From Azotobacter salinestris (GTDB lineage Bacteria > Pseudomonadota > Gammaproteobacteria > Pseudomonadales > Pseudomonadaceae), in assembly GCF_009363155.1 (NCBI RefSeq), contig NZ_CP045303.1, positions 248,001 through 312,000 on the forward strand: 64,000 nt of DNA. The letters run 5' to 3'. Of this stretch, positions 45,285-60,719 are shown piece after piece. The notes under the pieces were generated by a model. It was not told the DNA's origin, did not search any database, and saw only the letters and a program-made list of their open reading frames with translations. Position 1 is the first letter of the stretch; each line of letters begins with the position of its first letter. The translations under genes and the position numbers were made by a program.

Positions 45285-45776
45285 ATCCTCGCCGTGCTGC
45301 TCTATCACGGCCTGCGCCGCGAGGAAGCCGCCCGCCTGGCCGTCCACGATCTCCAGGACCGCCGCGGCCTCAAGCATCTGCGCGTCCACGGCAAGGGCGG
45401 CAAGCTGCGCTACCTGCCGCTGCACCCGGTCGCCGCCGAGCGCATCCATCTCTACCTGGAGGCCTCGGGTCATCACCAGCAATGGGACAAGGCGCCGCTG
45501 TTTCTGCCGCTGCGCGGCAAGCGGACCGGCGCCGGGATCTCTGCCGAGGGCATCTATGCCCTGGTCGGGGCCTACGCCAAGGCGGCCGGCATTATGATCG
45601 AGGGCCTCGGCGTCCACGGCCTGCGCGCCACCGCCGCCATCAACGCCCTGGAACACGAGGCCGACATCGCCAAGGTCCAGCAGTGGCTGGGCCACGCCAA
45701 CATCAGTACCACCCGGCTCTACGACCGGAGACACCTGCGGGCGGAGGATTCGCCCACCTTCAAGGTCCGCTACTAA
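45285..45776 (+). pseudogene. tyrosine recombinase (phage-type integrase), C-terminal catalytic part
   Basis: 163 codons remain from [20 protein letters not shown] to FKVRY. All the late catalytic residues are present: R in GLRREE, H and R in [12 protein letters not shown] in [16 protein letters not shown] and the tyrosine in the same stretch. The N-terminal core-binding domain is missing; the miniature Tn3-type element sits at the junction. Two further pieces of the same gene lie at 48144-48317 and 53918-54068. Confidence 0.85.
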
Positions 45777-45847
45777 GCCTATCGACCGATCGGCAAGCTT
45801 GCTCCCAGCATCGTTGCCCCGCTCGAAATAATCGATGTAGGGGACTA

Positions 45848-46664
45848 GGTTCTGTTGACGTATCAGCGCAGCCATAGCAAAACAGCCGCAAAAGCCAGCA
45901 TTCCCTTGAAATGGCTGGCCCTCTTCTCATAGCGAGTGGTGATCCGCCGGTAGTGCTTCAGCTTGCCGAACAGGCACTCGATCACGTGCCGCTCCTTGTA
46001 GAGATGCCAGTCGCAGGAGCGTTGCTCGATGCGGTTCCGTCTGGCGGGAATGACGGCCTGGATCTGGCGCTCCTTCAGCCAGGCCAGAAGCTGGTTGGCG
46101 TCATAGCCCTTGTCGGCCAGCAGTGCCGACGTGGCGATCCCCGCCATGAGTGGGATCGCCTGGCTGATATCGGCCGCTTGGCCTTCCGTCAGGATGAAGC
46201 GAATCGGTAACCCCAGCGCATCGGTCAACACATGGATCTTGCTGCTGAAGCCTCCTCGCGAATGCCCCAGTGCCTCCTGGGCCGCAGTACTGCTGGCCGC
46301 CCCGGCTGCACAGGCATGGGCACGCACGACGGAGCTGTCGATGCAGACGTGCTGAAGGTCAGCGTCCCGAGCCAGTACCGAGTGAAGCCGGTCCCAGACG
46401 CCGAGCCGGCACCAGCGGGTGAAGCGTTTGAAAACGCTGTTCCATGAGCCGAGGCAACGAGGCAGCATCCGCCATTGAGCGCCGCTGCGTAGTATCCAGA
46501 GCACCGCCTCGACAAAGCGGCGACAGCCGAGAGTACGGGTCAGCCGGATCCCCTTCGTGGCGCTCAGCAGACTTTGGATACGGGACCAGTCGGTATCGCT
46601 CAGACGGCTTCTGTCAGTCATGGCAAAAGCCCAGTTTTAGCACTGGGCTTGCGTCAACAGAACC
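45848..46664 (-). mobile_element. IS5-family element (IS427-like)
   Basis: The terminal inverted repeat GGTTCTGTTGACG (45848-45860) is perfectly matched by CGTCAACAGAACC (46652-46664). TA flanks both sides (45846-45847 and 46665-46666). Length 817 bp. It lies between the truncated recombinase and the HTH/PIN module. A single right end of a relative lies at 25297-25341. Confidence 0.88.
45863..46621 (-). CDS. IS5-family (IS427-like) transposase
   Basis: 252 residues in a single frame, MTDRSRLSDTDWSRIQSLLS. D in VCIDSSVVRAHACAAGAAS, D in TSALLADKGYDANQLLAWLK and E in YKERHVIECLFGKLKHYRRI form the DDE triad. Many relatives need a frameshift between two frames; here the reading is continuous. 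Probably active. Confidence 0.92.
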   Translation of the reverse strand: MTDRSRLSDTDWSRIQSLLSATKGIRLTRTLGCRRFVEAVLWILRSGAQWRMLPRCLGSWNSVFKRFTRWCRLGVWDRLHSVLARDADLQHVCIDSSVVRAHACAAGAASSTAAQEALGHSRGGFSSKIHVLTDALGLPIRFILTEGQAADISQAIPLMAGIATSALLADKGYDANQLLAWLKERQIQAVIPARRNRIEQRSCDWHLYKERHVIECLFGKLKHYRRITTRYEKRASHFKGMLAFAAVLLWLR

Positions 46665-46741
46665 TAGGAGATGGGCCTGATCGAGCGCGAGCCACATGTG
46701 CCCTGGAGCAGGGAAACCAGTCATCGGATGCCTCTGCAAGC

Positions 46742-46782
46742 TTTCGAATAATTCGAAAAATAACAAAATTGCGAAAATTTCG
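46742..46782. promoter_or_regulatory. operator pair upstream of the HTH/PIN module
   Basis: TTTCGAATAATTCGAAA (46742-46758) is a perfect 17-bp palindrome, and CGAAAATTTCG (46772-46782) has matching CGAAA/TTTCG arms 13 bp further on. Both are in an AT-rich promoter area ending 34 bp before the antitoxin start. They are the likely binding sites of the antitoxin. Confidence 0.6.
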
Positions 46783-46816
46783 AATATCCTGAATGCGCAA
46801 GGAGAGAGGAGCCGCC

Positions 46817-47272
46817 ATGAACCGCCTGCAAGAGACACTGCCCAGCGCAGCAGAGGCTGCCCTGGCCAAATTGTGCAGTCAGGAGCTTTCCGCCATTATC
46901 GAAACCCGCGCGGAGACGCAGACCCTGTCCATCAGCGATCCCAAGGGGGGGCGCTCCGTCAACATCCCGGTCAGCGCCCTGCGTCTGCTGGTCGATGTGT
47001 TGACCGAACTGGGTGAAGGCAACAGTGTCCGCCTGGTTCCCGTCCATGCGGAGTTGACCACCCAGGAAGCGGCCGACCTGCTGAATATGTCTCGCCCCAC
47101 CTTGATCAAGCTGCTCGACGAGGAAGCCATCCCCTACCATCGCGCCGGCAATCGCCGGAAGGTGAAATTTGCCGATCTCCGCATCTACCAGGAGAAGCTT
47201 GAACAGGAGCGACTGGCGGCGCTAGCCGAGCTCTCTGCCTTGGACCGGGCACTGGGGCTGGGCTACGAGTGA
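46817..47272 (+). CDS. helix-turn-helix antitoxin of a PIN-domain toxin
   Basis: 151 residues. N-terminal part MNRLQETLPSAAEAALAKLC is followed by the excisionase-like DNA-binding domain LTTQEAADLLNMSRPTLIKL and YHRAGNRRKVKFADLRIYQE. Proteins of this kind pair with VapC-like PIN toxins. I chose ATG 46817 because GAGAGGAG precedes it; the frame opens 24 bp earlier. Its TGA overlaps the GTG start of the toxin (GTGA), so the pair is coupled. Confidence 0.85.
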   Translation: MNRLQETLPSAAEAALAKLCSQELSAIIETRAETQTLSISDPKGGRSVNIPVSALRLLVDVLTELGEGNSVRLVPVHAELTTQEAADLLNMSRPTLIKLLDEEAIPYHRAGNRRKVKFADLRIYQEKLEQERLAALAELSALDRALGLGYE

Positions 47273-47774
47273 GCTCGAACTACACGGTCATCTACGATGC
47301 CTGCATTGCATGATGTATCCGGCACCGCTGCGCAGCCTGCTGATGTACCTGGCGCTATCCGGTCAGTTCCGCGCCCGCTGGTCGGAAACCATCCATCAGG
47401 AATGGACGCGGAATCTGCTGGCCGATCGTCCCGACTTGTCGCCTGACACGGTCGGGCGTGTACGAGAGCTGATGGATCGTCATGTGCCGGGAGCCCTGGT
47501 GACGGGCTTCGAGAGCCTGATCCCCGGCATTACACTCCCTGATCCGGAGGATCGCCATGTGGTGGCGGCCGCGGTGCAGACGCGTGCCGAAGCGATCGTG
47601 ACCTTCAATCTCAAGGATTTTCCCGACCAGGATCTGTCTCCCTTCGGTGTGCGGGCCATCCATCCGGACGACTTCATCACGGACCTGATGGAGCTGCACA
47701 TCGGCGCCGTGCTCGAGGCCGTCCGCCGTCACCGGGCATCGCTGAAGAACCCTCCCTTTTCCTCTCGCGAGTAG
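47269..47774 (+). pseudogene. PIN-domain toxin, frameshifted after residue 12
   Basis: GTG 47269 begins MSSNYTVIYDAC, carrying the first catalytic aspartate, then reads a stop at 47311. The rest (YPAPLRSLLMYLALSGQFRA, HQEWTRNLLADRP, DPEDRHVVAAAVQTRAEAIV, TFNLKDFP) continues in another frame to 47774. The junction ATTGCATGATG looks like five extra bases relative to the expected reading. A start at 47310 would lack the catalytic aspartate, so the toxin is probably dead. Confidence 0.75.
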
Positions 47775-47892
47775 CTGGACTGCCTGTTGAAGCAACGCCT
47801 TCCGGAAACCGTTTCCCGGCTTCGCGCGTTCGAGCTGCTCATCTGAATGCCTGGTAACGGCGCTCGAAGGCGGTTCACTCCATGCTCAGCCG
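47775..47892. other. short non-coding gap
   Basis: About 120 bp with nothing recognisable between the PIN relic and the coiled-coil relic. Confidence 0.4.
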
Positions 47893-48128
47893 GTGTCTTG
47901 TACGCCGGCAGTCGTTCCGAGCCTATTGGAGGCAGCTTTACAGAGGAACGCGGCCCAAACCCAACGGCCAGCTGCTGGCAGCCATGCAACAGCACAAGGA
48001 GGCCGAGGACAGTCGCGTCTACCTGCAGGCTGCCCAGGCCCGCGCCCACGAGATCGAGAAAACCCGCCGGCAGGCCCTCAAGGCGTGCAAAGAAGCAAAG
48101 CACGCCGCTGCCGAGCTGGATTGCAATC
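47893..48128 (+). pseudogene. coiled-coil protein relic, related to 59521-59863
   Basis: The segment starts with TACGCCGGCAGTCGTTCCGA and CCTATTGG, which recur at 59468-59500 before the related gene. One frame then reads [20 protein letters not shown] and [20 protein letters not shown], matching the helical protein at 59521. The frames do not connect and the gene ends at the recombinase fragment. Function unknown. Confidence 0.6.
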
Positions 48129-48143
48129 ATTGCTTGTCAACAA

Positions 48144-48317
48144 GAGGGCCTCGGCCACGGCCTGCGCGCCACCGCCGCCACCAACGCCCTCGAGCACGAG
48201 GCAGACATCGCCAAGGTCCAGCAGTGGCTGGGCCACGCCAACATCAGCACCACCCGGCTCTACGACCGCCGGCACATGCGGGCGGAGGATTCGCCCACGT
48301 TCAAGGTCCGCTACTGA
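48144..48317 (+). pseudogene. tyrosine recombinase C-terminal fragment (second copy)
   Basis: 57 codons, [20 protein letters not shown] to [20 protein letters not shown] and FKVRY, over 90 percent identical to the end of the fragment at 45285-45776. It carries the HxxR, GH and tyrosine residues only. It directly follows the coiled-coil relic and precedes the 113-bp direct repeat. Confidence 0.85.
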
Positions 48318-48335
48318 GCCACCCGGCAACGGAAA

Positions 48336-48448
48336 GGCTCGCGCCCGACGCCGGAGCGCAGCATGCACGTGGCCTTGCCTTGCGACAGATCGGGGACTGG
48401 AAATACTGCCCCCAGGCACACGGACAGTTCAGTGCCGTATCTCGGCGC
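48336..48448. repeat. 113-bp direct repeat, left copy
   Basis: GGCTCGCG to CTCGGCGC recurs at 52293-52405 in the same orientation with about seven mismatches. The two copies bracket the primase-helicase cassette, 3.8 kb apart. No coding function is apparent. Confidence 0.8.
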
Positions 48449-48607
48449 GCATGCGTCCGTAGATTGACTGAGCGATGCGAGCGACTTGTTCTGGCGTAGG
48501 GGCTTGCACATGCAGCACGGTCAGGCGCAAGGATCGGCCCGGGCGTCTGTTCCAGACTGTTGGCAAGTGTGTCAACAGCATGCCGACCAATGTGGTGAAA
48601 GCACTCG

Positions 48608-50977
48608 TCAACTGTCCAACTGGTCGGTTCCCATCCCCATGCGGTACCCCATCGCCCGGTACCCGCTCTGACGTTTCTCCCACATCCGCAGCAGTGCCGG
48701 ATGCCCAGTATCGACGAAATCGATGATGCGCACATCGGTCTTGCAGGCGTGCTCTCGATGCAGACGACCGGCGTATTGCTGCAGCGTGCCTTTCCAGGAG
48801 ACGGGCATCGCCAGCACCAGTGTGTCGAGGGGCGGATGGTCAAAGCCTTCGCCGACCAGTTTGCCTGTGGCCAGCAGTACGCGCGGCGCGTCGGGCGCTA
48901 AGGCGTCCAGTGCCGTGATCAGCGCTGCACGCTGTTTCTTGGACATCCGGCCGTGCAGCATAAACAGCTCCGGTATTTGTTCTTCCAGTGCAATCCGAAT
49001 AGCGTCGAGGTGTTCGGTACGCTCGGTCAGCACCAGCACTTTGCGACCCTGCTGAAACGCGTCACGGACTTCGGCGGCAATAGCTTCGGTCCTGGCCTGG
49101 TCATCGGCCAGATGCCGGAACACATCCTGGATGCCCGCCTCGTGCGGCAAGTCGATCCGTGAGAAACGTGTTCGCGGCAGCACCTCCAAGTCATGGGGTG
49201 CACCTGCCGGCTTAGCCGCTGTGTACCGGATCGGCCCGCACTGCATGAAGATGATCGGTTGTTGACCATCGCGGCGAATCGGGGTTGCCGTAAGGCCGAG
49301 CACGAACCTCGCCTTGGTTCGCTTCAGGATGGCATCGAATGACACGGCGCCAACGTGATGGCACTCGTCCACGATCACCTGCCCGTAGTGCTCAACCAGC
49401 GGATTGACCTCGCCCTGCCGGGATACCGACTGCATCACAGCGATATCGATCTTCCCGGTGGGTTTGGCCTTGCCACCACCAATGGTGCCGACTACGCCCT
49501 TGCCTACGCCGAGAAAGACTTGCAGGCGCTCTTGCCATTGTTTCAACAACTCGGTGCGGTGCACCAGCACCAGGGTGTTCACGCCCCGGCGAGCGATCAG
49601 CGCGGCGGCGGTAACGGTCTTGCCGAATGCTGTTGGCGCGCACAGGACCCCGGTGTCGTGATGCAGCATGGCCGAAACGGCAGTTTCCTGGTCAAGGCGC
49701 AAGGTGCCAGCGAAGGCCACATCGATGATCTCGCCGCCAAATCGCTCGTCATGCAGATCGCAGGCGATGCTGTTGTCGCGCAGCAAGTCCATTGCCGCAT
49801 CAAGACAGCCGCGAGGCAGAGCGATGTGTTGGGGGAAGTTTTCAGCATTGCCAATGACACGCGGCTTGTCCCACACCGACATGCGCATGGCCTGGGCCTT
49901 GTAGAACTCGGGGTTTTGGAAGGCGGCCAGCCGGATCAGGCGATTGGCCAGCGCTTGGGGGAGTTGCGCCTTCTCGAAATAGATCAGGTTCGCCAACGTC
50001 ACGGTGAGCGATGGCGGCATCGCACCGGATAGTTTCTTGGGCGATGCGCTCTCGCGCTTCCACGGCGTAGCCAGGTCCTCATCGTCGATGAAGGTGACAT
50101 CCAAGGGATGGACGCCACCGGTGGCACGCAGGATGGTCGGCTCGATGTCGTGAGCAGGCATCGGCCGGATCGCCGCCAGGAAAGCCCACTGGTCAGGATG
50201 CGGGCGCAGATCGGCATCAACGAACACACTGAAGCCGCTCTCCCTGGGCCACTTTTGCAGCGGCAGTGCGATCAGGTTGCCGAAGCCGCCTTTGGGCATC
50301 GTGTCCTGGTTGGGGAACAGTCGGTCGTAGGACTCCAGCTTCAGTTGCCGGGTGCGCGTGCAGGTGTGACTGATAATGGCCGTACCCAGTCGCCGGGAAT
50401 CGCGGGCAGAAACGCGGCTGGCGAAGAATACCCATGCGTGCGCGCCTTGCCCGGAGCGGGAAATTTCCAGCGCAGCCGGCACGCCCAGCTCCTCGCAGGA
50501 CTGCATGAAAGCACGCGCGTCATCTCTCCAGTCGGCCTCATCGAAATCGACCGCCAGAAAGTAGCAGGTGTCGTCCTCCAGCAGCGGATAGACGCCGACC
50601 GTGTGCGCACCGGCCAGATGGTCATAGATCACCGCGTCGGACAGCGGGATCAGCAGTCGCTTGTCGCAGTCACCACACTTGATACGGGGCTTCTCGCACA
50701 CACCGGCACGCCACTCGTTGGCGCAGGCTGGCGCATAGCCTGACTTGCCCGAGGTTTTGCCTTCCCAGCGAACCGGATACACATCCGTGCGCCCGCGAAA
50801 CAGCCGCCGGAACAGGGTCACCTTTTCAGTAGTGGACAGCCTGGACGGCTCCGGCGCTGCTACCCCTGGAGCCGGCTGGGACGGCGAAAGGCGCCACTCG
50901 ATGCCGTGTGATTCAAGCAGCGCGATCAGGCGAGCGTTCTCGGCCTGCACCGCTGCGAGCGTCTCCTGTTCAGCCAT
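48608..50977 (-). CDS. TOTE-type primase-polymerase fused to SF2 helicase
   Basis: 789 residues. A short coiled-coil start (residues about 5-25), a zinc-ribbon-like cluster (C85, C94, C101, C104), then an archaeo-eukaryotic primase domain with the metal-binding pair in FLAVDFDEADW (D144, D146) and the GxH motif SGQGAHAWVFF (H180). From about 425 it is a superfamily 2 helicase: Walker A PTAFGKT (K453), DECH (537-540), LGLTATPIRRDG, and the C-terminal LATGKLVGEGFDHP and QYAGRLHR. This architecture matches TOTE conflict-system proteins thought to act in defence or repair. It overlaps the partner gene upstream by 8 bases. Confidence 0.88.
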   Translation of the reverse strand: MAEQETLAAVQAENARLIALLESHGIEWRLSPSQPAPGVAAPEPSRLSTTEKVTLFRRLFRGRTDVYPVRWEGKTSGKSGYAPACANEWRAGVCEKPRIKCGDCDKRLLIPLSDAVIYDHLAGAHTVGVYPLLEDDTCYFLAVDFDEADWRDDARAFMQSCEELGVPAALEISRSGQGAHAWVFFASRVSARDSRRLGTAIISHTCTRTRQLKLESYDRLFPNQDTMPKGGFGNLIALPLQKWPRESGFSVFVDADLRPHPDQWAFLAAIRPMPAHDIEPTILRATGGVHPLDVTFIDDEDLATPWKRESASPKKLSGAMPPSLTVTLANLIYFEKAQLPQALANRLIRLAAFQNPEFYKAQAMRMSVWDKPRVIGNAENFPQHIALPRGCLDAAMDLLRDNSIACDLHDERFGGEIIDVAFAGTLRLDQETAVSAMLHHDTGVLCAPTAFGKTVTAAALIARRGVNTLVLVHRTELLKQWQERLQVFLGVGKGVVGTIGGGKAKPTGKIDIAVMQSVSRQGEVNPLVEHYGQVIVDECHHVGAVSFDAILKRTKARFVLGLTATPIRRDGQQPIIFMQCGPIRYTAAKPAGAPHDLEVLPRTRFSRIDLPHEAGIQDVFRHLADDQARTEAIAAEVRDAFQQGRKVLVLTERTEHLDAIRIALEEQIPELFMLHGRMSKKQRAALITALDALAPDAPRVLLATGKLVGEGFDHPPLDTLVLAMPVSWKGTLQQYAGRLHREHACKTDVRIIDFVDTGHPALLRMWEKRQSGYRAMGYRMGMGTDQLDS

Positions 50978-51515
50978 CGACTCCGTGCTCGGTCAGCAAT
51001 TCGTCCATGTCATCGCCGACGCCATAACCAAAATCGTGACTGGTGTGCCTCACCTCATCCAGCCGCCCCCAAAGGGCTGGTCGCTGCCCATCGGGCAAAG
51101 TCGCGATGGTCGTCAGCGCTTGCTCAAACATCAGCACCAGCGCATTGAAATAGCCCTCGTCCTGCAGGCCCACGTCGCTACTGAAACCGACCGCTTGCTC
51201 GCAATAGAACACCATCAGCTCCGCCAAGCCCTCTGATGGGCCGATGGCCTTCTTGTAGTCCGAAATGGCTTTCTTGGCCTTGGCCACCGAGGTGTCCTGG
51301 TTCTTGAATACATCAGGCCACAGCCAGCGGGCTATAGTCGTTTTGTAGGGCTTGAGCACATCGCCGCCGAGTGCGAAGCGCGCGTGCAAGAACGCCTGGT
51401 TGTCCTTGTTGGCGGCGTACAGGTCTTGTATAAGCCCGATCAGTCCGGCGCGGTCGAAGTCGGCCAGCTTGGCTTTAACGTCGCTCCAACTCGGGGCGGT
51501 TTTCTTGGTGGCCAT
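50970..51515 (-). CDS. small all-helical partner protein of the primase-helicase
   Basis: 181 residues beginning MATKKTAPSWSDVKAKLADF, rich in predicted helices (GLIGLIQDLYAANKDNQAFL, LAELMVFYCEQAVGFSSDVG). Recognisable as a conserved hypothetical family often found beside defence genes; no catalytic motif is visible. Its end overlaps the start of the primase-helicase gene by 8 bases, a strong sign that the two work together. I cannot assign a function. Confidence 0.8.
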   Translation of the reverse strand: MATKKTAPSWSDVKAKLADFDRAGLIGLIQDLYAANKDNQAFLHARFALGGDVLKPYKTTIARWLWPDVFKNQDTSVAKAKKAISDYKKAIGPSEGLAELMVFYCEQAVGFSSDVGLQDEGYFNALVLMFEQALTTIATLPDGQRPALWGRLDEVRHTSHDFGYGVGDDMDELLTEHGVDG

Positions 51516-51520
51516 GGATG

Positions 51521-51964
51521 TTATTCCCCCTCGTCGCGGGCTGGGCTCCCACCCTCAATCTGTTTGATCGCCCGGTCGAAGTCGCTCTCAAACAAGCGGT
51601 CCTGCACGATGCGGTACTTTTCGAACTCGCTCTCGGCATGAGCCTTGGTCATCTCGGCGGACACCTTGCCCGCACCCTTCAGGATGTCGCGCTCGGTGAG
51701 CTCCAGAAACGCATCTGGTAGGGCGAGTCATAAATTCGCATGCTGTTTTCGGTATGTAAGTCTTTGTTTCTTCCTGGAAAAATCGCGGCAAATTTGCGAC
51801 TCACACCACTAGCCGCTTGGCCCAGTCTTCCATCGTCATCGGTATCGTGCGACGGACGCGGTCCTCGGCCAGGTCAAGATAGGCGTTGACGATGCGGCCC
51901 AGCGATTCCAACTCGCCCGGGCCAAAGTAATTCTTGGCCACCACCACATCGGTTTTCACGATCT
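51521..51964 (-). pseudogene. RhuM-family protein relic, interrupted twice
   Basis: The minus strand encodes VAKNYFGPGELESLGRIVNA and YLDLAEDRVRRTIPMTMEDW to AKRL, then after a 94-bp insertion DAFLELTERDILKGAGKVSA to SPARDEGE and TAA at 51521-51523. This is the C-terminal third of a RhuM (virulence/defence-associated) protein. Removing 51716-51809 rejoins AKRL-DAFLEL perfectly. The 5-prime part is lost to an IS3-type end at 51965. It lies six bases upstream of the small partner gene, so it was once part of the same operon. Confidence 0.75.
51716..51809. mobile_element. 94-bp miniature insertion with inverted-repeat ends
   Basis: The insert in the RhuM relic has ends TGGTAGGGCGAGTCATAAAT and the reverse complement of the other end GTGGTGTGAGTCGCAAATTT, sharing TGGT, GAGTC and AAATT. 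It brings a stop codon and a frameshift. It is AT-rich (TTTTCGG, TCTTTGTTTC) unlike its host. It may be a MITE or an internally deleted IS; I do not recognise the family. Confidence 0.55.
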
Positions 51965-52075
51965 TGAACCACCCCGCGTTTCCGGAGGCTCAAACTCTTG
52001 AGAGGATGGGGCTATGAAGACATAGACCAAGTATTTCCCGGAAATCCGAGAGCGTGCTGTGCGCATGTTTTGCGC
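51965..52075 (+). pseudogene. IS3-family left end and orfA start
   Basis: TGAACCACCCCGCGTTTCCG is the typical start of IS407-like IS3 elements, followed at 52014 by ATG and a degraded orfA (stop at codon 4, then TKYFPEIRERAVRMF). Only about 110 bp remain. It cuts off the 5-prime part of the RhuM gene. Confidence 0.6.
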
Positions 52076-52292
52076 TTCAGATTTGATCATGCGTTACCGT
52101 CCTTCTCGTGCGTTGCATGCTCTATTGCCCTTGATCTTTTGCCTGTGGTCGATAGAAGGCCTTGATTCATTTGGCCTGCACAGGCGTATTGACCAGCTTC
52201 TATCGTCCGGCTCACTGATAAGGCGTAAGTTGTCCGATAGCCTGCTCATGACACCGCCCAGTACCGCCGCCAGCGGTTATCGCCTTTGGGGT
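52076..52292. other. unassigned region
   Basis: About 215 bp with a 144-codon plus-strand open frame that shows no family features. I see no supported gene. Confidence 0.4.
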
Positions 52293-52405
52293 GGCTCGCG
52301 TCCGACGCCGGAGCGCGACGTGCACGTGGCCTTGCCTTGCGCCAGATCGGGAACTGGAAACACTGCCCCCAGGCACACGGACAGTTCAGTGCCGTATCTC
52401 GGCGC
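52293..52405. repeat. 113-bp direct repeat, right copy
   Basis: Second copy of the repeat at 48336-48448, same orientation, about 94 percent identical. It lies about 110 bp upstream of the ATPase gene. Confidence 0.8.
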
Positions 52406-52512
52406 CTGCCCTCCACCCGGCAAGAGGGCTGCGGCTCAAGCGGCCTTATTAGTCATCTGGACGCGCATGAACTACAAAAATAGACGACAGTAAACCATTA
52501 ATTTGGACGGAG

Positions 52513-53868
52513 ATGAATCATGCAATTGGACGGATAGCTAAGCCCCTCATTACACTTCGGCCTGTTGATCGATCGCCTCCGACTGGTAGCCCCGTGACGA
52601 CCGTACACCACCCGCGTTATCTGCAGCAGCAGGTGCTGGATGCCTTGGCCGATACCCCCGTAGTGTGCATCCTCGGGCCGCGCCAAGTCGGCAAGACCAC
52701 GCTCGCACGTCGGCTGCAGCCGGATCGAACCTACATCTCCTTTGATGATGCCACACTGCTCGCTGCCGCCCGCGACGATCCGATGGGTTTTGTGGCCGGT
52801 CTGCCGGCCGCCATGATTCTTGATGAAGTGCAGCGCGTTCCCGAGCTGCTGCCAGCGATCAAACTGTCCGTAGACCGTGATCGCCGCCCAGGTCGCTTCA
52901 TTCTGACCGGCTCGGCCAACCTGCTGCTGCTACCGGGCGTACAGGAGTCGCTGGCCGGCCGGATGGAGGTGATCTACCTCAATCCCCTTTCCGAACAGGA
53001 AAAACACCACAGCACCTATTCGCTGCTGGAAGCCATGATTGCCGGACCGCTCAAGCCGGCGATCACCGGCATTCAGCCACCGGTCGCCGGGGTCGCCGAA
53101 GCCGTGGTACGCGGCGGTTATCCCGAGCCCAACACCCGCACCGAGCAGCGTGCCCAGCAGTGGTATCGCCAGTACCTGAACGCCATCATTCAGCGTGATG
53201 TCCGGGATATCGCCAACATCCGCGACTCCGATGAGTTGCTACGCCTGCTCAAGCTGATCGCTCTGCGCACCGGTAACCTGGTCAACATCAGTAGCCTGAT
53301 GCAGGACGTCGGCCTGCAGCGCGACACCATAGGCCGTTACCTGTCGGTACTGGAGCGCCTTTTCCTGATCCGAACGCTGCCCGCCTGGCACCGCAACGCC
53401 GCCAAACGCCTGATCAAGGCGCCCAAGATCCATATCGTCGACTCGGGACTGGGATGCGCCCTCACGGGGCTCAAAACAGCAGACTGGCATCAACCGACCA
53501 AGCCTTTTGGCGGCATGCTGGAAAGCTTCGTCGTACAACAGCTGATCTGCCAGTCGGGCTGGGTCGACAACGAACTCAGCTTTTCCCATTACCGGGATAA
53601 AGACCAGGTCGAAGTGGATCTGGTCATAGAGCAGGACGACCGCCTCTGGGGCGTGGAGGTCAAGAAGGCCGCCTCCATCCAGGCCCGGGACGGCCGGGGA
53701 CTGGCGCGACTTGCCGAGCAGGCCGGCGGCAGCTGGCAGGGCGGAATTCTGCTCTACACCGGAACCAACACGCTGCCGCTGGCCGAAATACCCAATGCCT
53801 TTGCCGTTCCCATGGATCGGCTGTGGCAGAGAGATTCCCTTGCGTCAGACCTGCAAGGTTCCCCATAG
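52513..53868 (+). CDS. AAA-type ATPase of the AAA_14/DUF4143 family
   Basis: 451 residues as read from ATG 52513; the GTG at 52594 (TTVHHPRYLQQQVLDALADT) gives the more usual start, so the first 27 residues are doubtful. Walker A is LGPRQVGKTTLARRL, Walker B MILDEVQRVPELL, and the sensor region is FILTGSANLLLLPGVQESLA. The C-terminal DUF4143 part has the nuclease-like SFSHYRDKDQVEVDLVIEQD and WGVEVKKAASI, the D/ExK pattern. These proteins are common orphan ATPases near mobile elements; function is unknown but defence or TA-like roles are proposed. Confidence 0.9.
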   Translation: MNHAIGRIAKPLITLRPVDRSPPTGSPVTTVHHPRYLQQQVLDALADTPVVCILGPRQVGKTTLARRLQPDRTYISFDDATLLAAARDDPMGFVAGLPAAMILDEVQRVPELLPAIKLSVDRDRRPGRFILTGSANLLLLPGVQESLAGRMEVIYLNPLSEQEKHHSTYSLLEAMIAGPLKPAITGIQPPVAGVAEAVVRGGYPEPNTRTEQRAQQWYRQYLNAIIQRDVRDIANIRDSDELLRLLKLIALRTGNLVNISSLMQDVGLQRDTIGRYLSVLERLFLIRTLPAWHRNAAKRLIKAPKIHIVDSGLGCALTGLKTADWHQPTKPFGGMLESFVVQQLICQSGWVDNELSFSHYRDKDQVEVDLVIEQDDRLWGVEVKKAASIQARDGRGLARLAEQAGGSWQGGILLYTGTNTLPLAEIPNAFAVPMDRLWQRDSLASDLQGSP

Positions 53869-53917
53869 ACAGTTCGCGCGGGTCGGCCACTACGGCCGGC
53901 AGGCCGGAGGCCTCAGG

Positions 53918-54068
53918 GCACCCTCTCGACGAGCGCAAAGCGCCACTGTTCCTGCCGCTGCACGGCAAGCTGACTGGCGCCGGGATCTCCACCGAGGGCA
54001 TCTATGCCCTGGTCGGGGCCTACGCCAAGGCCGCCACCAACCGCCCTGGAACACGAGCCAGCCTGTAG
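53918..54068 (+). pseudogene. tyrosine recombinase internal fragment (third copy)
   Basis: [20 protein letters not shown] and [16 protein letters not shown] match the middle of the recombinase at 45285-45776. An internal deletion between two GCCGCC tracts then joins it to a frameshifted piece of the [12 protein letters not shown] region, and it stops at 54068. No catalytic residue remains. Confidence 0.75.
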
Positions 54069-54094
54069 GTCGGGGTAGCGCAGCGTAACCCGAC

Positions 54095-54215
54095 AATGCC
54101 CCTCCACCACCTGCCAATGCCCACCCTTGTTCGGGCCAATACGGCTCAGGCGGCCGCCAGCCTTGAATGCGGCCAGCTGCTCCACCGCCCGCTGCGACAG
54201 GCCCAGCCTATCTTG
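54095..54215 (-). pseudogene. winged-helix C-terminal remnant of a RecG-like/AlbA_2 ATPase
   Basis: The minus strand reads LSQRAVEQLAAFKAGGRLSR and IGPNKGGHWQVVE, which resembles the C-terminal winged helix of ATP-dependent helicase-like (AAA_4) proteins. Only about 40 codons survive, ending in a GC-rich dispersed sequence. Confidence 0.4.
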
Positions 54216-54429
54216 CCGTCAGGGCGGGATTGGATCTGAGCAGTGCCAACAGCGGTGTTTCTTCCGAACTTTCTTCCGCACTTTGTACCGAACCATCCGC
54301 CTTTGATCCCACCCGTTCTGGACAGGATCAGAACTATTTCAGACGCTCAGCTGCTTTGCGATACGCCTGTTCGCGCTCGCGCTTATCGACCGCCACCACA
54401 AACACTACCACCTCCTGGTCGATCACTTG

Positions 54430-55607
54430 TTGACATCCTCCCCGCCCTAAAGGACGGGGATTCCCACTGCTGGACGGCCATGCCCGGCCGCGAGAATGTT
54501 CCTGGCCGCGTTCACATCGCGGTCGTGCGTGACACCACACACACTGCAGGTCCACTCCCTCATTCCAAGTCCTGCGATACCTTTCGGCCGCGAATCGGGC
54601 AATGCGCCGCAATTCGAACAGGCTTGGGTGGTGTAGCGCTCGTCGACCACCTTGAAGACGATGCCTGCGTGACCGCACTTGTATTCCAGCATCGTCTTCA
54701 GTTGGCCCCAGCCGGCATCGAGCACCGACTTGGCCATCCGGGTCTTCACGAGTTTCGTGGACGACACGTCGCCCACCAGGATTTCGCCGTACCGGCTCAC
54801 CAACTGCCGGCTGAATTTATGCAGGGCATCCCGGCGCCGGTTGGCAATCCTGGCGTGGATCGCCCGGACGCGGGCCTTGTTGCCGGCCCGCTGGGCAGCG
54901 GCCAGGGCCGGCTCCAGGTCGCGGTAGAAGCGGCCGTTCTCCAGCCGGGTGCCATCGCTGCAGGTGGCCACGTCCTTCAGGCCCAGGTCGATGCCCAGGG
55001 CACCCTGGCCGAGCGACGGCCGTGCATCGACCTCGACGACGACATTGAAGTACCAGCGGCCCCGCGCATCCTCGCTGAAGCTGCCCGAGCGGAACCGGTA
55101 CCGGCCCAAGCCGTGGCTGTCCCAGACCTTGAAGCAATGGCCGTTGTGACAGATCTGCCCGCTTTTCCATTGAGCGGCACCCGACTTGAAGGGAATCCAG
55201 CCCAGCGAGCGCCGGGTGCCGCCCGACCTGCGCCAGTTGAGCCTGGCTTTCCCGAACTGCTTGCGCCGGGTGACATATTCCCGCGACACCTCTTGCAGCG
55301 TCTGGGAATGGAGCCCCTGCTCTTTGCTGGAGCCCTTGGTGTAGCGGTCCATATCGTAGGCGGACAGAAACAGACCGCGCTCTCGAATGGCTCGGGAGCT
55401 AAGTTCGTTCAGGTAGTTCCAGACGAGATTGACGCTGCGGGCCATCTGCCGGAGCAGCGGCGCATGCTTGTCTCGAACGCGAACCTTGAGGGTCTTGGTG
55501 TGCTTCATGCGGCCAGGTTGCCATGTAGTTGGGGAAACCCAAGGGTCGCTTCGCGACCCGCGCTCTACATCCCCGCACTAAAAGTACGGGCTTTCCGCTC
55601 ATTCCCG
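54430..55607 (-). mobile_element. tnpB-only IS200/IS605-family (IS1341-type) element
   Basis: On the minus strand the left end follows TTAC (55611-55608) and the right end finishes with TCAA (54433-54430), the cleavage tetranucleotides known for this superfamily. A right-end hairpin CCCCGCCCT / AGGACGGGG lies at about 54440-54460. No target duplication, as expected. There is no tnpA, so movement would need TnpA in trans. Confidence 0.8.
54447..55508 (-). CDS. tnpB: TnpB RNA-guided nuclease-type protein
   Basis: 353 residues, a normal length. N-terminal MKHTKTLKVRVRDKHAPLLR, then RuvC-I LGIDLGLKDVATCSDG (D174), RuvC-II region ILVGDVSSTKLVKTRMAKSV, a zinc finger CSNCG (C297, C300) with CSVC (C321, C324), and RuvC-III THDRDVNAARNIL (D331). 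Position II has GDV where a glutamate is usual; a glutamate in VVDERYTTQACSNC (E290) may take its place, as described for TnpBs with a rearranged site. The guide RNA should come from the right end and would read into relE. Confidence 0.9.
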   Translation of the reverse strand: MKHTKTLKVRVRDKHAPLLRQMARSVNLVWNYLNELSSRAIRERGLFLSAYDMDRYTKGSSKEQGLHSQTLQEVSREYVTRRKQFGKARLNWRRSGGTRRSLGWIPFKSGAAQWKSGQICHNGHCFKVWDSHGLGRYRFRSGSFSEDARGRWYFNVVVEVDARPSLGQGALGIDLGLKDVATCSDGTRLENGRFYRDLEPALAAAQRAGNKARVRAIHARIANRRRDALHKFSRQLVSRYGEILVGDVSSTKLVKTRMAKSVLDAGWGQLKTMLEYKCGHAGIVFKVVDERYTTQACSNCGALPDSRPKGIAGLGMREWTCSVCGVTHDRDVNAARNILAAGHGRPAVGIPVL

Positions 55608-55788
55608 GTAAACCAGCCGGTAGCCGTTGCCGCGCAGCTTGATCTTGTAGCAGTCGGGCAATGAATGCAGGCGGTTGGCCTCGATGCGGGGATGCTCCAG
55701 GACCTCGATCAGTTTCTTCTTGAACTGCTGCCGGACCGTATCGCCCAACTTGTGCCACTCCTTCAACGCGCGTGCATCGAATTCCAGG

Positions 55789-56028
55789 CTATAGGTCATC
55801 CAGCGAAACCTTCACACGCTGGGGAGCGGCCAGCCGTTCGCGGACAGTGGCGATCAGAGCCTCCTCCTCCTCGGTCATCAGTACCGGGCGGAAGGGCAGC
55901 TGGCCGCGCTCGGCCACATATTGCAAGGTCTGGCGCATCAGCTCGGAAGGCGTCACGCCTAGGCGCTCCAACTCGCGATAGGCGCGGTCTTTGAGGTCGT
56001 CATCGATACGGATATTGATCGAGGCCAT
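55789..56028 (-). CDS. relB: RelB/DinJ-family antitoxin
   Basis: A 79-residue ribbon-helix-helix protein: SINIRIDDDLKDRAYRELER, LGVTPSELMRQTLQYVAERG, ending QRVKVSLDDL. The frame opens at 56058 but ATG 56028 is the family start. Its stop overlaps the relE start by 11 bases. It should repress its own promoter at 56042-56061. Since relE is interrupted, the antitoxin is now without an active partner. Confidence 0.88.
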   Translation of the reverse strand: MASINIRIDDDLKDRAYRELERLGVTPSELMRQTLQYVAERGQLPFRPVLMTEEEEALIATVRERLAAPQRVKVSLDDL

Positions 56029-56041
56029 AGCCTTGGCTCCT

Positions 56042-56061
56042 GTAAATACATTTGTCATTAC
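56042..56061. promoter_or_regulatory. relBE operator palindrome
   Basis: GTAAATACATTTGTCATTAC has inverted GTAA/TTAC and ACA/TGT arms and lies 13 bp upstream of the relB start, the expected place for RelB autorepression. Confidence 0.55.
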
Positions 56062-56109
56062 GGTGACGACCTGTCAGCGGTTTTGCAAGGTGTTTTAGGG
56101 CTCCGCGAT

Positions 56110-56510
56110 GAAAGGGTTTGGTCAGGAGATGTTCGACGCCCTGTCGCGGCAGAGCGCATCGAATGGATGCGACCGGTAAGCCTCTGTTCCAGGCTTCTTG
56201 GTGAACTGGATGCCGTTGCCAGTCAGGAGCGTGTGGAGGCGATTTGGTGGTGCAGTCGATCGCGCGAAGAGATAGGCCTTGCCCTCAGCGGTACGGGTCT
56301 CGGTGATATCAATATGCAGATAGCCCAGCGGATAGTGCTTAAAGGGGTTTTTCTCACGACCTGGCTCCGTGCGAGGCAACTGGCTGACGCCGTGGCGCCG
56401 GAAGAGGCGGTGAAACTCCTGCCGTCCAACCCGGCGACAAACCGGCGCAGGTCATCGAGGGGGCTTATTGTCTCTTCTGAGTGGACGATATTGCGCTTTT
56501 CGGCCTCTTA
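56110..56510 (-). pseudogene. IS481-family transposase remnant
   Basis: The minus strand reads, across frames, FHRLFRRHGVSQLPRTEPGR and KNPFKHYPLGYLHIDITETR then TAEGKAYLFARS and TLLTGNGIQFTKK, which is the IS481 core (HIDI is the first catalytic aspartate region, GNGIQFT the second with D changed to G). Several frameshifts and an internal deletion make it non-functional. Confidence 0.65.
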
Positions 56511-56585
56511 ATCGAATCGCGAGGAGACACTAGTCTGTGCTCATGGTGCTGAACAAGGCACCCCTACCTACCAGGAGACACGGAC

Positions 56586-57008
56586 ATGACCCTTTCGACC
56601 TCGACCGCCACCCACACCGCCAGCGCTTTCGCCGGCCGCGCCCTGCTGGGCTCGCTGTTCATCGTCAGCGGCCTGGGCAAGGCCGCCGCCCCGGCCGCCA
56701 CCCTCGGCTACATCGGCAGCACCGGCCTGCCCTTCCCCACACTGGCCCTGGCGGTCGCGCTGCTGATCGAGCTGGGCTTCGCCGCGGCGCTGCTGGTCGG
56801 CTACCGCACCCGCCTGGTCGCCACCGTGATGGCCGGCTTCACCCTGGCGACGGCCCTGGCGTTCCACAACCAGCTGGGCGACCAGAACCAGCTCATCCAC
56901 TTCCTGAAGAACCTGGCGATCGCCGGGGGCCTGCTGCAGGTGGCCGCCTTCGGCGCCGGCGCCCTGAGCCTGGATGCCTACCGCAGCCGCCGCAGCGCCC
57001 ACGCCTGA
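56586..57008 (+). CDS. DoxX-family membrane protein
   Basis: A 140-residue inner-membrane protein with four helices: FAGRALLGSLFIVSGLGKAA, LPFPTLALAVALLIELGFAA, TVMAGFTLATALAFHNQL and LAIAGGLLQVAAFGAGAL. DoxX/YphA-like proteins are linked to redox or thiol stress, but the reaction is unsettled. ATG 56586 follows CAGGAGACACGGAC. It is followed after 48 bp by a pirin, a common pairing in proteobacteria. Confidence 0.9.
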   Translation: MTLSTSTATHTASAFAGRALLGSLFIVSGLGKAAAPAATLGYIGSTGLPFPTLALAVALLIELGFAAALLVGYRTRLVATVMAGFTLATALAFHNQLGDQNQLIHFLKNLAIAGGLLQVAAFGAGALSLDAYRSRRSAHA

Positions 57009-57056
57009 GACTTCCCGCCCGGCTTCGGCCGGGCCGTCCCGATCGAGGAATCCGAG

Positions 57057-57785
57057 ATGAACACCCACGAACTGCGCCGCTCCAGCGAGCGCGGCCAGGC
57101 CGATCACGGCTGGCTGCAATCCCGCCACAGCTTTTCCTTCGCCGCCTACCACGACCCCGAGCAGGTCGGTTTCTCCGACCTCCTGGTGATCAACGACGAC
57201 CGCGTCGCCGCCGGCCAGGGCTTCGGCCGTCACCCGCACCGGGACATGGAGATCCTCTCCTACGTGCTCGACGGCGCCCTCGAGCACCAGGACAGCCTGG
57301 GCAACGGTTCGCTGATCCGCCCGGGCGACATCCAGCTGATGAGCGCCGGCACCGGCATCGCCCACAGCGAGTACAACGCCTCGCCCCGCGAGCCGGTGCA
57401 CTTCCTGCAGATCTGGATCGTCCCGGCTGTCAGGGGCGTGACGCCGGGCTATCAACAGCAGCGCTTCGCCGCCGAGGACAAGCGCGGCCGGCTGCAGCTG
57501 ATCCTCTCGCCGGACGGCGAGCGGGGTTCGCTGCGCCTCCACCAGGACGCCCGGGTCTACGCCGGACTGTTCGACGGCGCGGAACAGGCCAGCCTGGAAC
57601 TCGGCGGGCAGCGCCACGCCTACGTGCACCTGGCGCGCGGCGCGCTGAGCGTCAACGGCCAGCGCCTGGAGACCGGCGACGGCCTGCGCATTCGCCACGC
57701 CGAGCGCCTGGAATTCGCCGACGGCGAACGGGCCGAGGTGCTGGTCTTCGATCTGCGCCCCAACGAACGTCCGCGCATGCCCTGA
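57057..57785 (+). CDS. pirin-family protein (YhaK-like bicupin)
   Basis: 242 residues. The N-terminal cupin has the metal-binding wording GFGRHPHRDMEILSYVLDGA and later GTGIAHSEYNASPREPVHFL. YhaK-type pirins have quercetinase-like activity or act as redox sensors in the cytosol. The ATG at 57057 follows a GAGGAATCCGAG ribosome site. It is in tandem with DoxX and a quinone-oxidoreductase-like enzyme, suggesting a shared role with quinones or flavonoid-like compounds. Confidence 0.92.
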   Translation: MNTHELRRSSERGQADHGWLQSRHSFSFAAYHDPEQVGFSDLLVINDDRVAAGQGFGRHPHRDMEILSYVLDGALEHQDSLGNGSLIRPGDIQLMSAGTGIAHSEYNASPREPVHFLQIWIVPAVRGVTPGYQQQRFAAEDKRGRLQLILSPDGERGSLRLHQDARVYAGLFDGAEQASLELGGQRHAYVHLARGALSVNGQRLETGDGLRIRHAERLEFADGERAEVLVFDLRPNERPRMP

Positions 57786-57891
57786 ACAGTACCCACGGTG
57801 GTCCCTGCGGGCAGCGCCGGGTATGCCGCCCGGCGAAAACCGGAACGGCCACCCATCGCTCACTGCCCCCTTGAAGCGTGAAGGAGTCCTC

Positions 57892-58848
57892 ATGAAAGCA
57901 CTGCAATTTTCCCAAACCGGCGATCTGTCTGCGCTGCGTTACCTCGATCTGCCGACGCCGCTCCCTGCCGCCGGCGAGGTACTGGTGGAGGTCAGAGCCA
58001 GCGGACTGAATCCGAGCGACGTGAAGAACGTGCTCGGACGTTTCCCCTACACCACCCTGCCCCGTATTCCCGGCCGGGACTTTGCCGGCGTCGTGGTGCA
58101 AGGTCCGCAGAATCTGCTGGGCAAAGCTGTATGGGGGACGGGCAAGGAGCTGGGCTTCTATAACGACGGCGCCCACGCCGCCTACGTGAAGCTGCCCGCC
58201 GACGGCGTGGCGCTCAAACCTGCGTCCCTGAGTTTCAGCCAGGCCGCCAGCCTCGGCGTGCCCTATACCACCGCCTGGGATGCCCTGGAGCGTAGCGGCG
58301 TGGGCCGTGGCACGCGGCTGCTGGTGATCGGCGCCGGCGCGGTGGGCCGTGCGGCCCTGGCACTGGCCAGGGTGCGTGGCGCGCACGTGCTGGGCGCGGC
58401 GCGCCGTGAGGAACAGCGGCGGGCTCTGCAGGCCCAGGGTTTTGAAGCGCTGCCGCTGACCACTCCGGAAGCCCTGCCCAGCCAGGTCGAACAGGTGTTC
58501 GAGGGCGGCGCGCAGGTGATCTTCGATACCACCGGCTTTTGGCTCGCCGCCGCGGTCCCGGCCCTGGCGACCTTTGGCCGTATCGCGATTATCGCGGCGC
58601 CGGTCGACGGCCAGGTGCAGTTGCCCGCGCTGGACCTGTATCGCCGTGGCGGCTCGGTGGTGGGCATCAACTCGCTGCTCTACGGCTGCGCCGAATGCGC
58701 ACGGATGCTGGAGCGCTTTGGCCGGCATTTCGACGACGGCACCCTGCCCGCTCCGGATGGATTGGTCGAGTCTCCCCTCGCCGAGGGCTCGGCGCGTTAT
58801 GCCGACGTCCACGAAGGGCACAGCGAGAAGGTGATCCTGATTCCCTGA
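57892..58848 (+). CDS. quinone oxidoreductase-like zinc-free MDR-family enzyme
   Basis: 318 residues of the medium-chain dehydrogenase/reductase superfamily. GroES-like N-terminus (AGEVLVEVRASGLNPSDVKN, IPGRDFAGVVV), then the Rossmann part LLVIGAGAVGRAALALARVR. The zinc ligands of alcohol dehydrogenases are absent. It probably reduces quinones or enones with NADPH. The frame opens at 57823, but ATG 57892 has AAGGAG before it. A stem-loop follows the gene at 58851-58881. It forms the end of the DoxX-pirin set. Confidence 0.9.
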   Translation: MKALQFSQTGDLSALRYLDLPTPLPAAGEVLVEVRASGLNPSDVKNVLGRFPYTTLPRIPGRDFAGVVVQGPQNLLGKAVWGTGKELGFYNDGAHAAYVKLPADGVALKPASLSFSQAASLGVPYTTAWDALERSGVGRGTRLLVIGAGAVGRAALALARVRGAHVLGAARREEQRRALQAQGFEALPLTTPEALPSQVEQVFEGGAQVIFDTTGFWLAAAVPALATFGRIAIIAAPVDGQVQLPALDLYRRGGSVVGINSLLYGCAECARMLERFGRHFDDGTLPAPDGLVESPLAEGSARYADVHEGHSEKVILIP

Positions 58849-58850
58849 GC

Positions 58851-58881
58851 CAGGACCGGTTGGCGTTCGTCGCCGGTCCTG
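58851..58881 (+). terminator. stem-loop after the quinone oxidoreductase gene
   Basis: CAGGACCGG (58851-58859) pairs perfectly with CCGGTCCTG (58873-58881). No run of T follows, so it may be a transcript-stabilising hairpin or a weak terminator. Confidence 0.5.
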
Positions 58882-59311
58882 CGAGGCGCTTCGCGGGCCC
58901 GGCGCAGGCGCTTGCCGACCGGAGCGTAAAGGCCTTGGTCGATGCTGAACGCTGATCGGTTGAATGCCCAGCGCCCGTGCATGCAGGAAGGCGGGGCCGA
59001 TCCCATCGATGTCCTCACCGCTCACACCAGCCACCTTGAACTGTGTCCCTTCCGGCTGACATGCGCTTCACATCAGCAACGCTCGGGAGGCGGCCTGAAC
59101 GATAAAAAGCCCCCGGCCGACAGGCAGCGGCAGCGGGGGCACACAACGGCAGCAGCAACTGGCGTCCTGCCAGTTACAGCGGCGGGGACCCTAACACCCT
59201 TTCGCCGCTTCGTTTATCGCACACCGACCGAGCGGTCGCGCCAGGGGGATGGGCGGTTCGAATGACGAACCTGGATAGAGGGGACGAGCCACTTTCTTCG
59301 GCGCCAAACAA
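58882..59311. other. unassigned region
   Basis: About 430 bp with GC-rich open frames on both strands but no recognisable product. It includes GC-rich inverted stretches (for example gcggcaggggg near 59130) and no clear tRNA. Confidence 0.4.
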
Positions 59312-59340
59312 AAACGGCGAGGGGGTTAGCCTCGCCGTTT
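59312..59340. terminator. rho-independent terminator-like hairpin
   Basis: AAACGGCGAGG (59312-59322) and CCTCGCCGTTT (59330-59340) form a perfect 11-bp stem with a 7-base loop and A/T ends on both sides, so it could terminate transcription from either direction. Confidence 0.7.
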
Positions 59341-59520
59341 CATGTCGTTCAACCGCATCCCTGGGTTCATCATCCTGATGAAGTCGCCGCATCCTGCGGC
59401 GGTCCCCTTGGCCGCCCTCCTTGGTCAGCCTGCGCCGTTCCTTCGGCGTCTTGGTGGGATTCAATCTACGCCGGCAGCCGTTCCGCGCCTATTGGGCGAA
59501 CGCCCGATCTGCTGTAGGCC
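59341..59520. other. leader region with sequence repeated at 47893
   Basis: Contains TACGCCGGCAGCCGTTCCGC and GCCTATTGGG (about 59468-59500), shared with the relic at 47893-47930. No supported gene. Confidence 0.45.
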
Positions 59521-59863
59521 ATGGCTTACAGCACGGGAGCCGGGGCCAACGCCAACGGTCAGCTGCTCGCCGCGATGCAGCAGCACGAGGAAGATACCAA
59601 GCTCAGCGCCGAACTGCGCCGCGACCTGGAAAAGGCGCGCAAGGAAGCCGAGGACGGCCGCGTCCACCTGCAGGCCGCCCGGGCCCGCCTCGACGGCGCC
59701 GCCTGCGAGATCGAGGAGACGCGCAAGCAGGCCCGCGACGAAGTGAAACAGGCCGCCGCCAGCGCCGCCGAGCTTGCGTGGTGAGCTGAAAGCCCTGCAG
59801 CAGGAGATCGCCCGTATCAAGGACGGCAAGACGTCATCCCAGCCACACAAAGGTCGCCACTGA
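59521..59863 (+). pseudogene. small coiled-coil protein, frameshifted near its end
   Basis: The frame [20 protein letters not shown] to EETRKQARDEVKQAAASAAE is a long charged helix, and it stops at 59784. Shifting one base near 59775 gives GELKALQQEIARIKDGKTSS and HKGRH, ending TGA at 59861-59863, which overlaps the ATG of the exonuclease. That overlap strongly suggests the shifted tail is the true C-terminus (about 114 residues in all). Related debris lies at 47893-48128. It resembles plasmid or phage coiled-coil proteins generally; family not recognised. Confidence 0.6.
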
Positions 59864-60468: not shown

Positions 60469-60499
60469 TTTTCCACGCCAGTGACCGGCCATGAGCCTT

Positions 60500-60680
60500 C
60501 GATGAATAGTGAAGGGATTGGCCTGCGCAGCCGCCGGGGCGTAAACGTGAGTATGCAGCCTCCCGGCCAGGATCCTGGATCAGCGTGCTCTTGCCGGTCT
60601 GGCGGGCGCCATTGACCCGCACGACGGGAGGCGCTCCTCGAGCGCCTCAAGGAGAACTGGGCGGATGCTTCGCGGGTATG
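60500..60680 (-). pseudogene. AAA_14/DUF4143 ATPase N-terminal remnant
   Basis: The minus strand reads RVNGARQTGKSTLIQD, the Walker A of the same ATPase family as 52513-53868. Frameshifts surround it and the rest of the gene is gone. The perfect palindrome at 60683-60719 lies just upstream. Confidence 0.55.
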
Positions 60681-60682
60681 GT

Positions 60683-60719
60683 GGTGTAATTTCATCCACT
60701 TGTTGGTTGAAATTACACC
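60683..60719. promoter_or_regulatory. perfect 12-bp inverted repeat (operator-like)
   Basis: GGTGTAATTTCA (60683-60694) and TGAAATTACACC (60708-60719) are exact inverses separated by 13 bases. It is placed like a promoter operator for the ATPase relic on the minus strand; it could also fold as a hairpin. Confidence 0.6.

Follow-up and report, generated by a model that had tools for sequence, protein, structure and literature searches.

A DUF6155-like partner gene overlapping an AEP/SF2 primase-helicase gene: a recurrent operon form, here with a RhuM relic, on a megaplasmid-sized replicon of Azotobacter salinestris

Archaeo-eukaryotic primases (AEPs) of bacteria, and defence systems that bear on them, have been described in several settings. 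CAPP proteins have primase, polymerase, and strand-displacement activity (PMC10345425); their non-CRISPR relatives are typically found in mobile elements, and the helicase form, CAPP_A, is the most prevalent among these homologues (PMC8211822). In other bacterial families, AEPs occur almost solely on mobile elements, often as fusions with helicases (PMC5862659). TOTE conflict systems combine TPR, OB, TBP, and Effector parts (PMC12458937), Hachiman pairs the effector HamA with the DNA-state-sensing helicase HamB (PMC12278908), and RhuM, where it occurs in restriction-modification (R-M) loci, has been proposed as the toxin of a multilevel defence (PMC3710099). Here, we describe a minus-strand locus of Azotobacter salinestris in which a small partner gene overlaps the start of an AEP/SF2 primase-helicase gene and is preceded by the relic of a RhuM gene. 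It lies in a 64,000-nucleotide stretch of DNA (the window), which is positions 248001-312000 of replicon C3 (321.6 kb); this replicon is megaplasmid-sized, and the other contigs of the genome measure 4.93 Mb and 40.9 kb.

Judged by its sequence, the enzyme resembles the non-CRISPR CAPP-helicase proteins. As in the CAPP_A helicase type (PMC8211822), an AEP domain akin to the Marinitoga CAPP (7nqf/7nqd), with DxD and GxH motifs, is followed by a helicase domain, and no CRISPR operon accompanies it. The AEP half aligns to 7nqf/7nqd, the nearest solved AEP, at an E-value of 2e-9, with DFD over DID, GAH over GYH, and FVDAD over FVDND; a further entry of the 7nqf sequence, 7p9j, is named CAPP in PMC10345425, and the aligned DxD motif is presumably the pair mutated in PMC8211822. 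No CRISPR-like array (short repeats at regular spacing) was found in window positions 40000-64000, and neither Cas1 nor Cas2 was found among the 10 window proteins scanned, where the lone Cas-named match was the TNB domain of a TnpB. The difference lies in the neighbours, since section 6 of PMC8211822 mentions neither an overlapping DUF6155-like partner nor a RhuM/R-M context.

A sequence-only reading of this DNA had called the locus TOTE-type. The Pfam name of the AEP domain (AEP-TOTE, PF22548, 2.7e-99) bears this out and is the feature shared with TOTE conflict systems; the rest of the label did not hold. TBP (PF00352) gave no match in the whole genome, in a search whose control matched 4 of 14 genomes, all archaeal by name, so that a divergent bacterial TBP could escape it. 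No TPR-OB/cold-shock component was present among the 10 window proteins scanned, the rest of the genome not having been searched for it. With both parts missing from these searches, and RhuM, partner, and helicase in their place, we do not class it among the TOTE systems. Searches of the open-access literature for AEP-TOTE, TOTE conflict, or PF22548, and for "TOTE conflict system" together with primase, returned no paper.

Hachiman follows the same two-gene logic of an effector and a DNA-state-sensing helicase, but the match of the HamB hidden Markov model to our helicase is weak (0.011), and HamA is a nuclease whereas the partner here shows no nuclease match. RhuM and YhcG are themselves defence candidates in PADLOC (PDC-S05 and PDC-S02), and these models match the upstream genes of native operons. 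The passages at hand from PMC3710099 mention neither the primase-helicase nor the partner, and no open-access paper was found that joins "archaeo-eukaryotic primase" and RhuM.

Evidence for an operon comes from other genomes. With an alignment of the partner, a pattern-based scan of GTDB-species genomes yielded 228 relatives, and the locus statistics rest on the best 80 of these. Five of the 80 are at contig edges; the other 75 have room for a downstream gene, and in 44 of these the partner is directly followed by the helicase, which is sometimes truncated. The two frames overlap by 8-17 nt in all 43 pairs that could be measured, out of 44, assuming the nearest in-frame start codon; the overlap is 8 nt in 34 pairs, and at least 30 of these read ATGNNTGA, as in the window. 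In 19 loci the gene immediately upstream is RhuM, with 0-8 nt between it and the first aligned residue of the partner, and in 14 of the 19 the helicase is adjacent as well. One recurrent native form, as predicted from these frames, is thus RhuM, DUF6155-like partner, and AEP/SF2 primase-helicase, with the helicase last. The single minus-strand unit proposed for the window stands, and operons with this gene order are found in other genomes too.

Other genes can take the upstream position. When the upstream frames were clustered (82 of 84 loci have one), a second cluster comprised seven loci with YhcG-type frames, two of them from plasmid records; Pfam confirms YhcG for locus L034. Pfam families were also tallied, among the 25 top families, for up to three genes per side of the 44 loci with an adjacent helicase. 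The 122 upstream proteins include RhuM (15), YhcG (5), Methylase_S (4), Fic (4), N6_Mtase (3), PhdYeFM antitoxin (3), GmrSD_C (2), ResIII (2), and McrBC (1). Among the 96 downstream proteins, no family exceeds two and the named ones are mostly metabolic or transport proteins, a mixture that suggests the helicase is usually the last gene of the module. One order, in a Comamonadaceae locus, reads HsdM, YhcG, HsdS, PtuA-like ATPase, PtuB/PDC-M01B-like, RhuM, partner, helicase.

The association also has a phylogenetic side. On a helicase tree of 57 tips, the partner label changes 8 times against a shuffled mean of 17.4, and none of 500 shuffles was as low, though near-copies cluster labels in such a test. 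The clustering suggests that the two genes have moved as a pair, a history broken by several losses or gains.

Helicases that lack the partner have neighbours of another kind. Ten upstream proteins were scanned, drawn from 14 loci picked by hand, not at random, among 23 partner-less ones; they gave AbiEii (4), HipA (1), ParE (1), AAA_14/DUF4143 (1), HATPase_c_4 (1), SNF2 (1), and none (1). By these matches, the primase-helicase family may hold a general slot behind toxin-type genes such as AbiEii, HipA, and ParE. In loci L058, L065, L070, and L071, partner-less AEP helicases stand directly behind AbiEii genes.

Table 1. Features of the locus and its surroundings (window coordinates).
Feature	Position	Strand	Remarks
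3' fragment of plasmid XerC-like tyrosine recombinase	48144-48317	+	Pfam Phage_integrase; nt 1024-1200 of the intact copy
Duplicated segment	48144-51674		inverted at C3:15437-18960; 99.7% identical over 48144-51641
Left 113-bp repeat	48336-48448		read as the 3' flank of a tyrosine recombinase gene
AEP primase / SF2 (XPB/RadD-like) helicase fusion	48608-50977	-	789 aa
Small partner protein	50970-51515	-	181 aa; predicted all-alpha; divergent DUF6155 relative by sequence
RhuM relic, C-terminal piece	51545-51709	-	residues 295-349 of intact RhuM; tblastn with the intact RhuM of L098, an environmental Comamonadaceae locus, 76%
Stretch of about 92 bp within the RhuM relic	51717-51808		absent from A. 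beijerinckii; imperfect inverted ends by eye; one genome match
RhuM relic, second piece	51810-51965	-	residues 241-292 of intact RhuM; tblastn, 58%
Right repeat	52293-52436		113 bp to 52405 plus a 31-bp tail common to A. beijerinckii and A. chroococcum
AAA_14/DUF4143 gene	52513-53868		complete; between the right repeat and the right recombinase piece
Mid-gene fragment of the same recombinase family	53906-54057	+	nt 882-1011 plus about 1050-1083

The partner, whose frame overlaps the helicase start by 8 nt, is a divergent relative of DUF6155 as far as profile matches can tell. DUF6155 (PF19652) reaches it with an E-value of 0.02 and 15.1 bits, under the 27-bit cut-off, and matches 43 of 47 members of the partner family at E<=1, the best at 5.9e-6. 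The sequence-only reading had called this protein uncharacterised, and our searches agree: no Pfam model matches above its cut-off, no PADLOC or NCBIfam model matches at E<=1, and Foldseek with the AlphaFold2 model (mean predicted local distance difference test score, pLDDT, 90.8; nine helices, all-helical) found no solved structure at E<=0.001. Weak TPR matches occur in the family (TPR_7 in 3 of 47 members and TPR_19 in 1 of 47; best 0.01). Residues invariant across the 47 rows include W10, K14, K37, N39, S76, K81, C105, E106, D119, and R151, and no enzyme signature is evident among the conserved positions; the protein was also considered by eye as a HEPN RNase and rejected, the candidate R and H not both being conserved.

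Partner matches occur in 10 of 274 genomes of the class, this genome included, and no relative was found in the viral contigs scanned. No open-access paper on DUF6155 was found. On an Azonexus hydrophilus plasmid (L037 7977-8582), a partner relative stands without the helicase and is followed by DUF3024 and a recombinase.

In the primase-helicase, Pfam places ResIII (2e-23) and Helicase_C (8e-8) C-terminal to the AEP domain, and the PADLOC PrimPol model matches at 5.4e-116. An alignment of 27 sequences, all close relatives at 77-99% identity, leaves Cys 85/94/101/104, D144/D146, H180, D254, Walker A (447-454), and DECHH (537-541) invariant in 27 of 27. D144, D146, and H180 had been pointed out as primase-like, and they are found at those positions, within motifs that align with the solved AEP. 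The AlphaFold2 model of the whole protein was too poor for use (pLDDT 55.9). None of 1109 matching phage records covers 80% of the helicase. A phage origin is thus unsupported in the collections scanned, in which the partner too is missing from viral contigs, although the passages at hand from PMC8211822 do mention phage Prim-Pols.

RhuM survives in the window as two pieces about 100 bp apart (Table 1), and tblastn gave no match to the part upstream of residue 241 within 51400-52300. The other two Azotobacter copies likewise retain C-terminal parts alone by tblastn. The helicase and partner frames are full length in all three. Relative to A. beijerinckii, the helicase differs in 18 synonymous and 6 non-synonymous codons (non-synonymous rate dN 0.0034, synonymous rate dS 0.031, dN/dS about 0.11), and the partner in 7 and 5 (dN 0.012, dS 0.059, dN/dS about 0.20). 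These counts point to a two-gene unit that has been kept without RhuM, both genes being under purifying selection.

The unit is bracketed by the 113-bp direct repeat that the sequence-only reading described: the two copies are present as given, in direct orientation and 94% identical, and the right copy with its tail aligns to A. beijerinckii over 144 bp at 92%. The same reading placed pieces of one tyrosine recombinase outside each repeat. Such pieces exist, but their arrangement is less tidy than that, as the left piece stops 18 nt before the left repeat whereas the right piece starts about 1.5 kb past the right repeat, beyond a complete AAA_14/DUF4143 gene. The two pieces overlap and so are not two halves of one gene, and with the 3' end on the left and mainly the middle on the right they stand in an order that an insertion into one gene would not produce.

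Its further proposal, that the repeats are the attachment-like ends of an integrated cassette, fares poorly against the other copies. The genome holds three copies of the 113-bp unit, two in the window and one at C3:18655-18765, which sits 18 nt 3' of a complete tyrosine recombinase frame of 399 aa (L012 18784-19983), with a second cassette copy after it. A. beijerinckii has one full unit, at the same 18-nt spacing on the 3' side of a recombinase frame and 2.9 kb from the helicase end, so that the full pair is seen in one of three Azotobacter copies. When related genomes were searched for the repeat, the A. chroococcum HR1 plasmid NZ_CP066312 was found to carry recombinase debris and the unit (81%), then a CopG/RelE pair and no cassette, a find of the type that the sequence-only reading had set as a refutation; the flanks of this unit do not match both window flanks. 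The repeat occurs in one plasmid record, from Azotobacter, while the recombinase matches 157 of 72,556 plasmid records, 125 of them from Pseudomonas, and eight places in this genome, all on replicon C3, including the intact gene and one repeat-only match. Given its fixed distance from the recombinase frame in two copies, the plasmid nature of that gene, and the cassette-free unit, the 113-bp sequence is probably the downstream flank of the recombinase gene and not part of the operon mechanism.

The repeat was also considered as an RNA family and rejected, with one chance-level match elsewhere in the stretch and none on the repeat. The 144-bp unit was likewise rejected as a structured single-strand site, showing no excess folding (z -0.86; 43 of 200 shuffles as good).

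Among the Azotobacter plasmid copies of the recombinase, the DNA shared between different downstream classes stops about -2 to +12 nt from the stop codon (window 45776 and 48317; L012 14114 and 18784; L038 283 and 7912; L084 5177; L085 5177; L033). At least four different sequences lie beyond it: the 113-bp unit; DoxX/pirin/ADH; one common to pAcX50d and A. beijerinckii; and IS5. The pattern looks as if cargo had joined at the 3' end of the gene, and in two plasmids the downstream genes include the toxin-antitoxin-type genes HipA and AbiEii.

The second copy belongs to a larger duplication. In a comparison of the window with C3:1-32000, window 45288-62899 and C3:19272-3711 form an inverted, collinear series of blocks, of which five outside the cassette (45288-45779, 56407-58910, 58947-59531, 60531-60719, and 60722-62899) are 88-94% identical. 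The segment with the cassette stands out at 99.7%, with helicase and partner genes identical between the copies, and neither of its ends (48144; 51641-51674) falls at a repeat. The contrast in identity suggests that the segment was copied or converted recently; by our reading, this conversion or transfer took place inside plasmid blocks whose duplication is older.

Several other elements lie nearby. A TnpB/OrfB of IS605 type (window 54447-55508) has an open frame of 353 aa with a Cas12f1-like TNB domain, and HTH_17 and PIN_3 genes in series (window 46793-47774), just left of the recombinase fragment, resemble a toxin-antitoxin pair. About 115 bp at window 51965-52080 have four relatives on contig C2 (76-82%) and resemble, by eye, the start of an IS3-type transposase gene. 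The 160 bp separating the left repeat from the helicase gave no plasmid match.

The account we favour, and hold at about even confidence, is that of a horizontally spread accessory operon of R-M and defence islands, in which a RhuM effector, an adaptor, and a DNA-sensing primase-helicase would be translationally coupled, with RhuM lost here. The genes would be transcribed together. The helicase would engage invading or replicating DNA by translocation, perhaps with priming or fill-in where the DNA is single-stranded; the all-helical partner, co-produced through the overlapping frames, may form a complex with it and act as its adaptor; and an exchangeable upstream gene (RhuM, the YhcG nuclease, or Fic) would supply the damaging activity. 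In the Azotobacter copies, where RhuM is broken, purifying selection would keep the remaining two genes. A bolder proposal is that RhuM, the DUF6155-like protein, and the AEP/SF2 helicase make up an undescribed three-gene antiviral system, the helicase sensing or re-priming invading replication intermediates, the partner serving as adaptor, and the effector (RhuM, YhcG, Fic) being swappable, with an anti-phage outcome; this we put forward tentatively, with confidence well short of even.

Several points weigh against an accessory defence operon. The partner has no adjacent helicase in 31 of the 75 loci with room (in at least L092, L136, L152, and L166 a helicase or its remnant lies further downstream), RhuM is upstream in a minority of partner loci, and it is broken in all three Azotobacter copies. 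Most of the helicases examined, in turn, lack the partner: it is a direct neighbour in 4 of their 32 loci, one of them in this genome; neither gene strictly needs the other. The upstream tally includes housekeeping families (GMP synthase, 2; IMPDH, 1; IPPT) and the downstream tally includes BrxA (1), BrxC (1), and AAA_21 (2), so the defence context should be taken as a tendency. Location in a defence island would also fit passenger genes, and the related Prim-Pols reported from phage genomes (PMC8211822) belong on this side as well.

Three other explanations draw on the same evidence. The primase-helicase could serve the replication or maintenance of its carrier mobile element, or general repair, as the published ties of non-CRISPR CAPP relatives (PMC8211822) and of other bacterial AEPs (PMC5862659) to mobile elements and the megaplasmid-sized replicon would allow; we think this unlikely, given that Pfam found no replication gene besides the helicase itself among the 10 window proteins scanned, that upstream genes are often of restriction or defence type across the 44 loci, that loci L090 and L104 appear by eye to be flanked by housekeeping genes, and that the viral contigs scanned lack the partner. 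Could the genes instead be passenger debris, once functional and now drifting with recombinase and insertion-sequence fragments? The eight recombinase matches on C3 and the broken RhuM would suit such decay, whereas the full-length frames in three Azotobacter copies, the low dN/dS of both genes, and their identity between the copies here make it quite improbable.

We consider it very unlikely that the neighbouring tyrosine recombinase has moved the unit as a mobile cassette, using the 113-bp repeats for attachment, even though direct repeats flank it in the window and the 99.7% segment has been recently copied or converted. In A. beijerinckii, moreover, the final 12 bp of a second unit survive with its tail on the RhuM side (L038 1601-1777, matching window 52394-52571), so the ancestor may also have been bracketed, a point that counts against reading the repeat as a mere gene flank. 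Set against this are the presence of one full repeat each at the second copy and at the A. beijerinckii copy, the cassette-free unit of A. chroococcum HR1, the order of the recombinase pieces and their place outside the repeats, the lack of excess folding, and the mismatch between repeats and duplication ends. A direct repeat can adjoin the debris of a recombinase without being an attachment site.

Returning to the favoured account of an accessory operon, the operon itself is real and conserved: the kind of enzyme is known, the overlapping partner gene is new, and the defence context is frequent. Bacterial primase-helicases of this kind are common, with AEP-TOTE matches in 35 of 369 genomes of the class, this genome included, and the open-access literature yielded no paper that settles their job. 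With the conserved overlapping partner and the recurrent RhuM/restriction neighbourhood, what was an orphan enzyme becomes an operon that can be tested, and this context could explain why a primase is found at the end of restriction loci.

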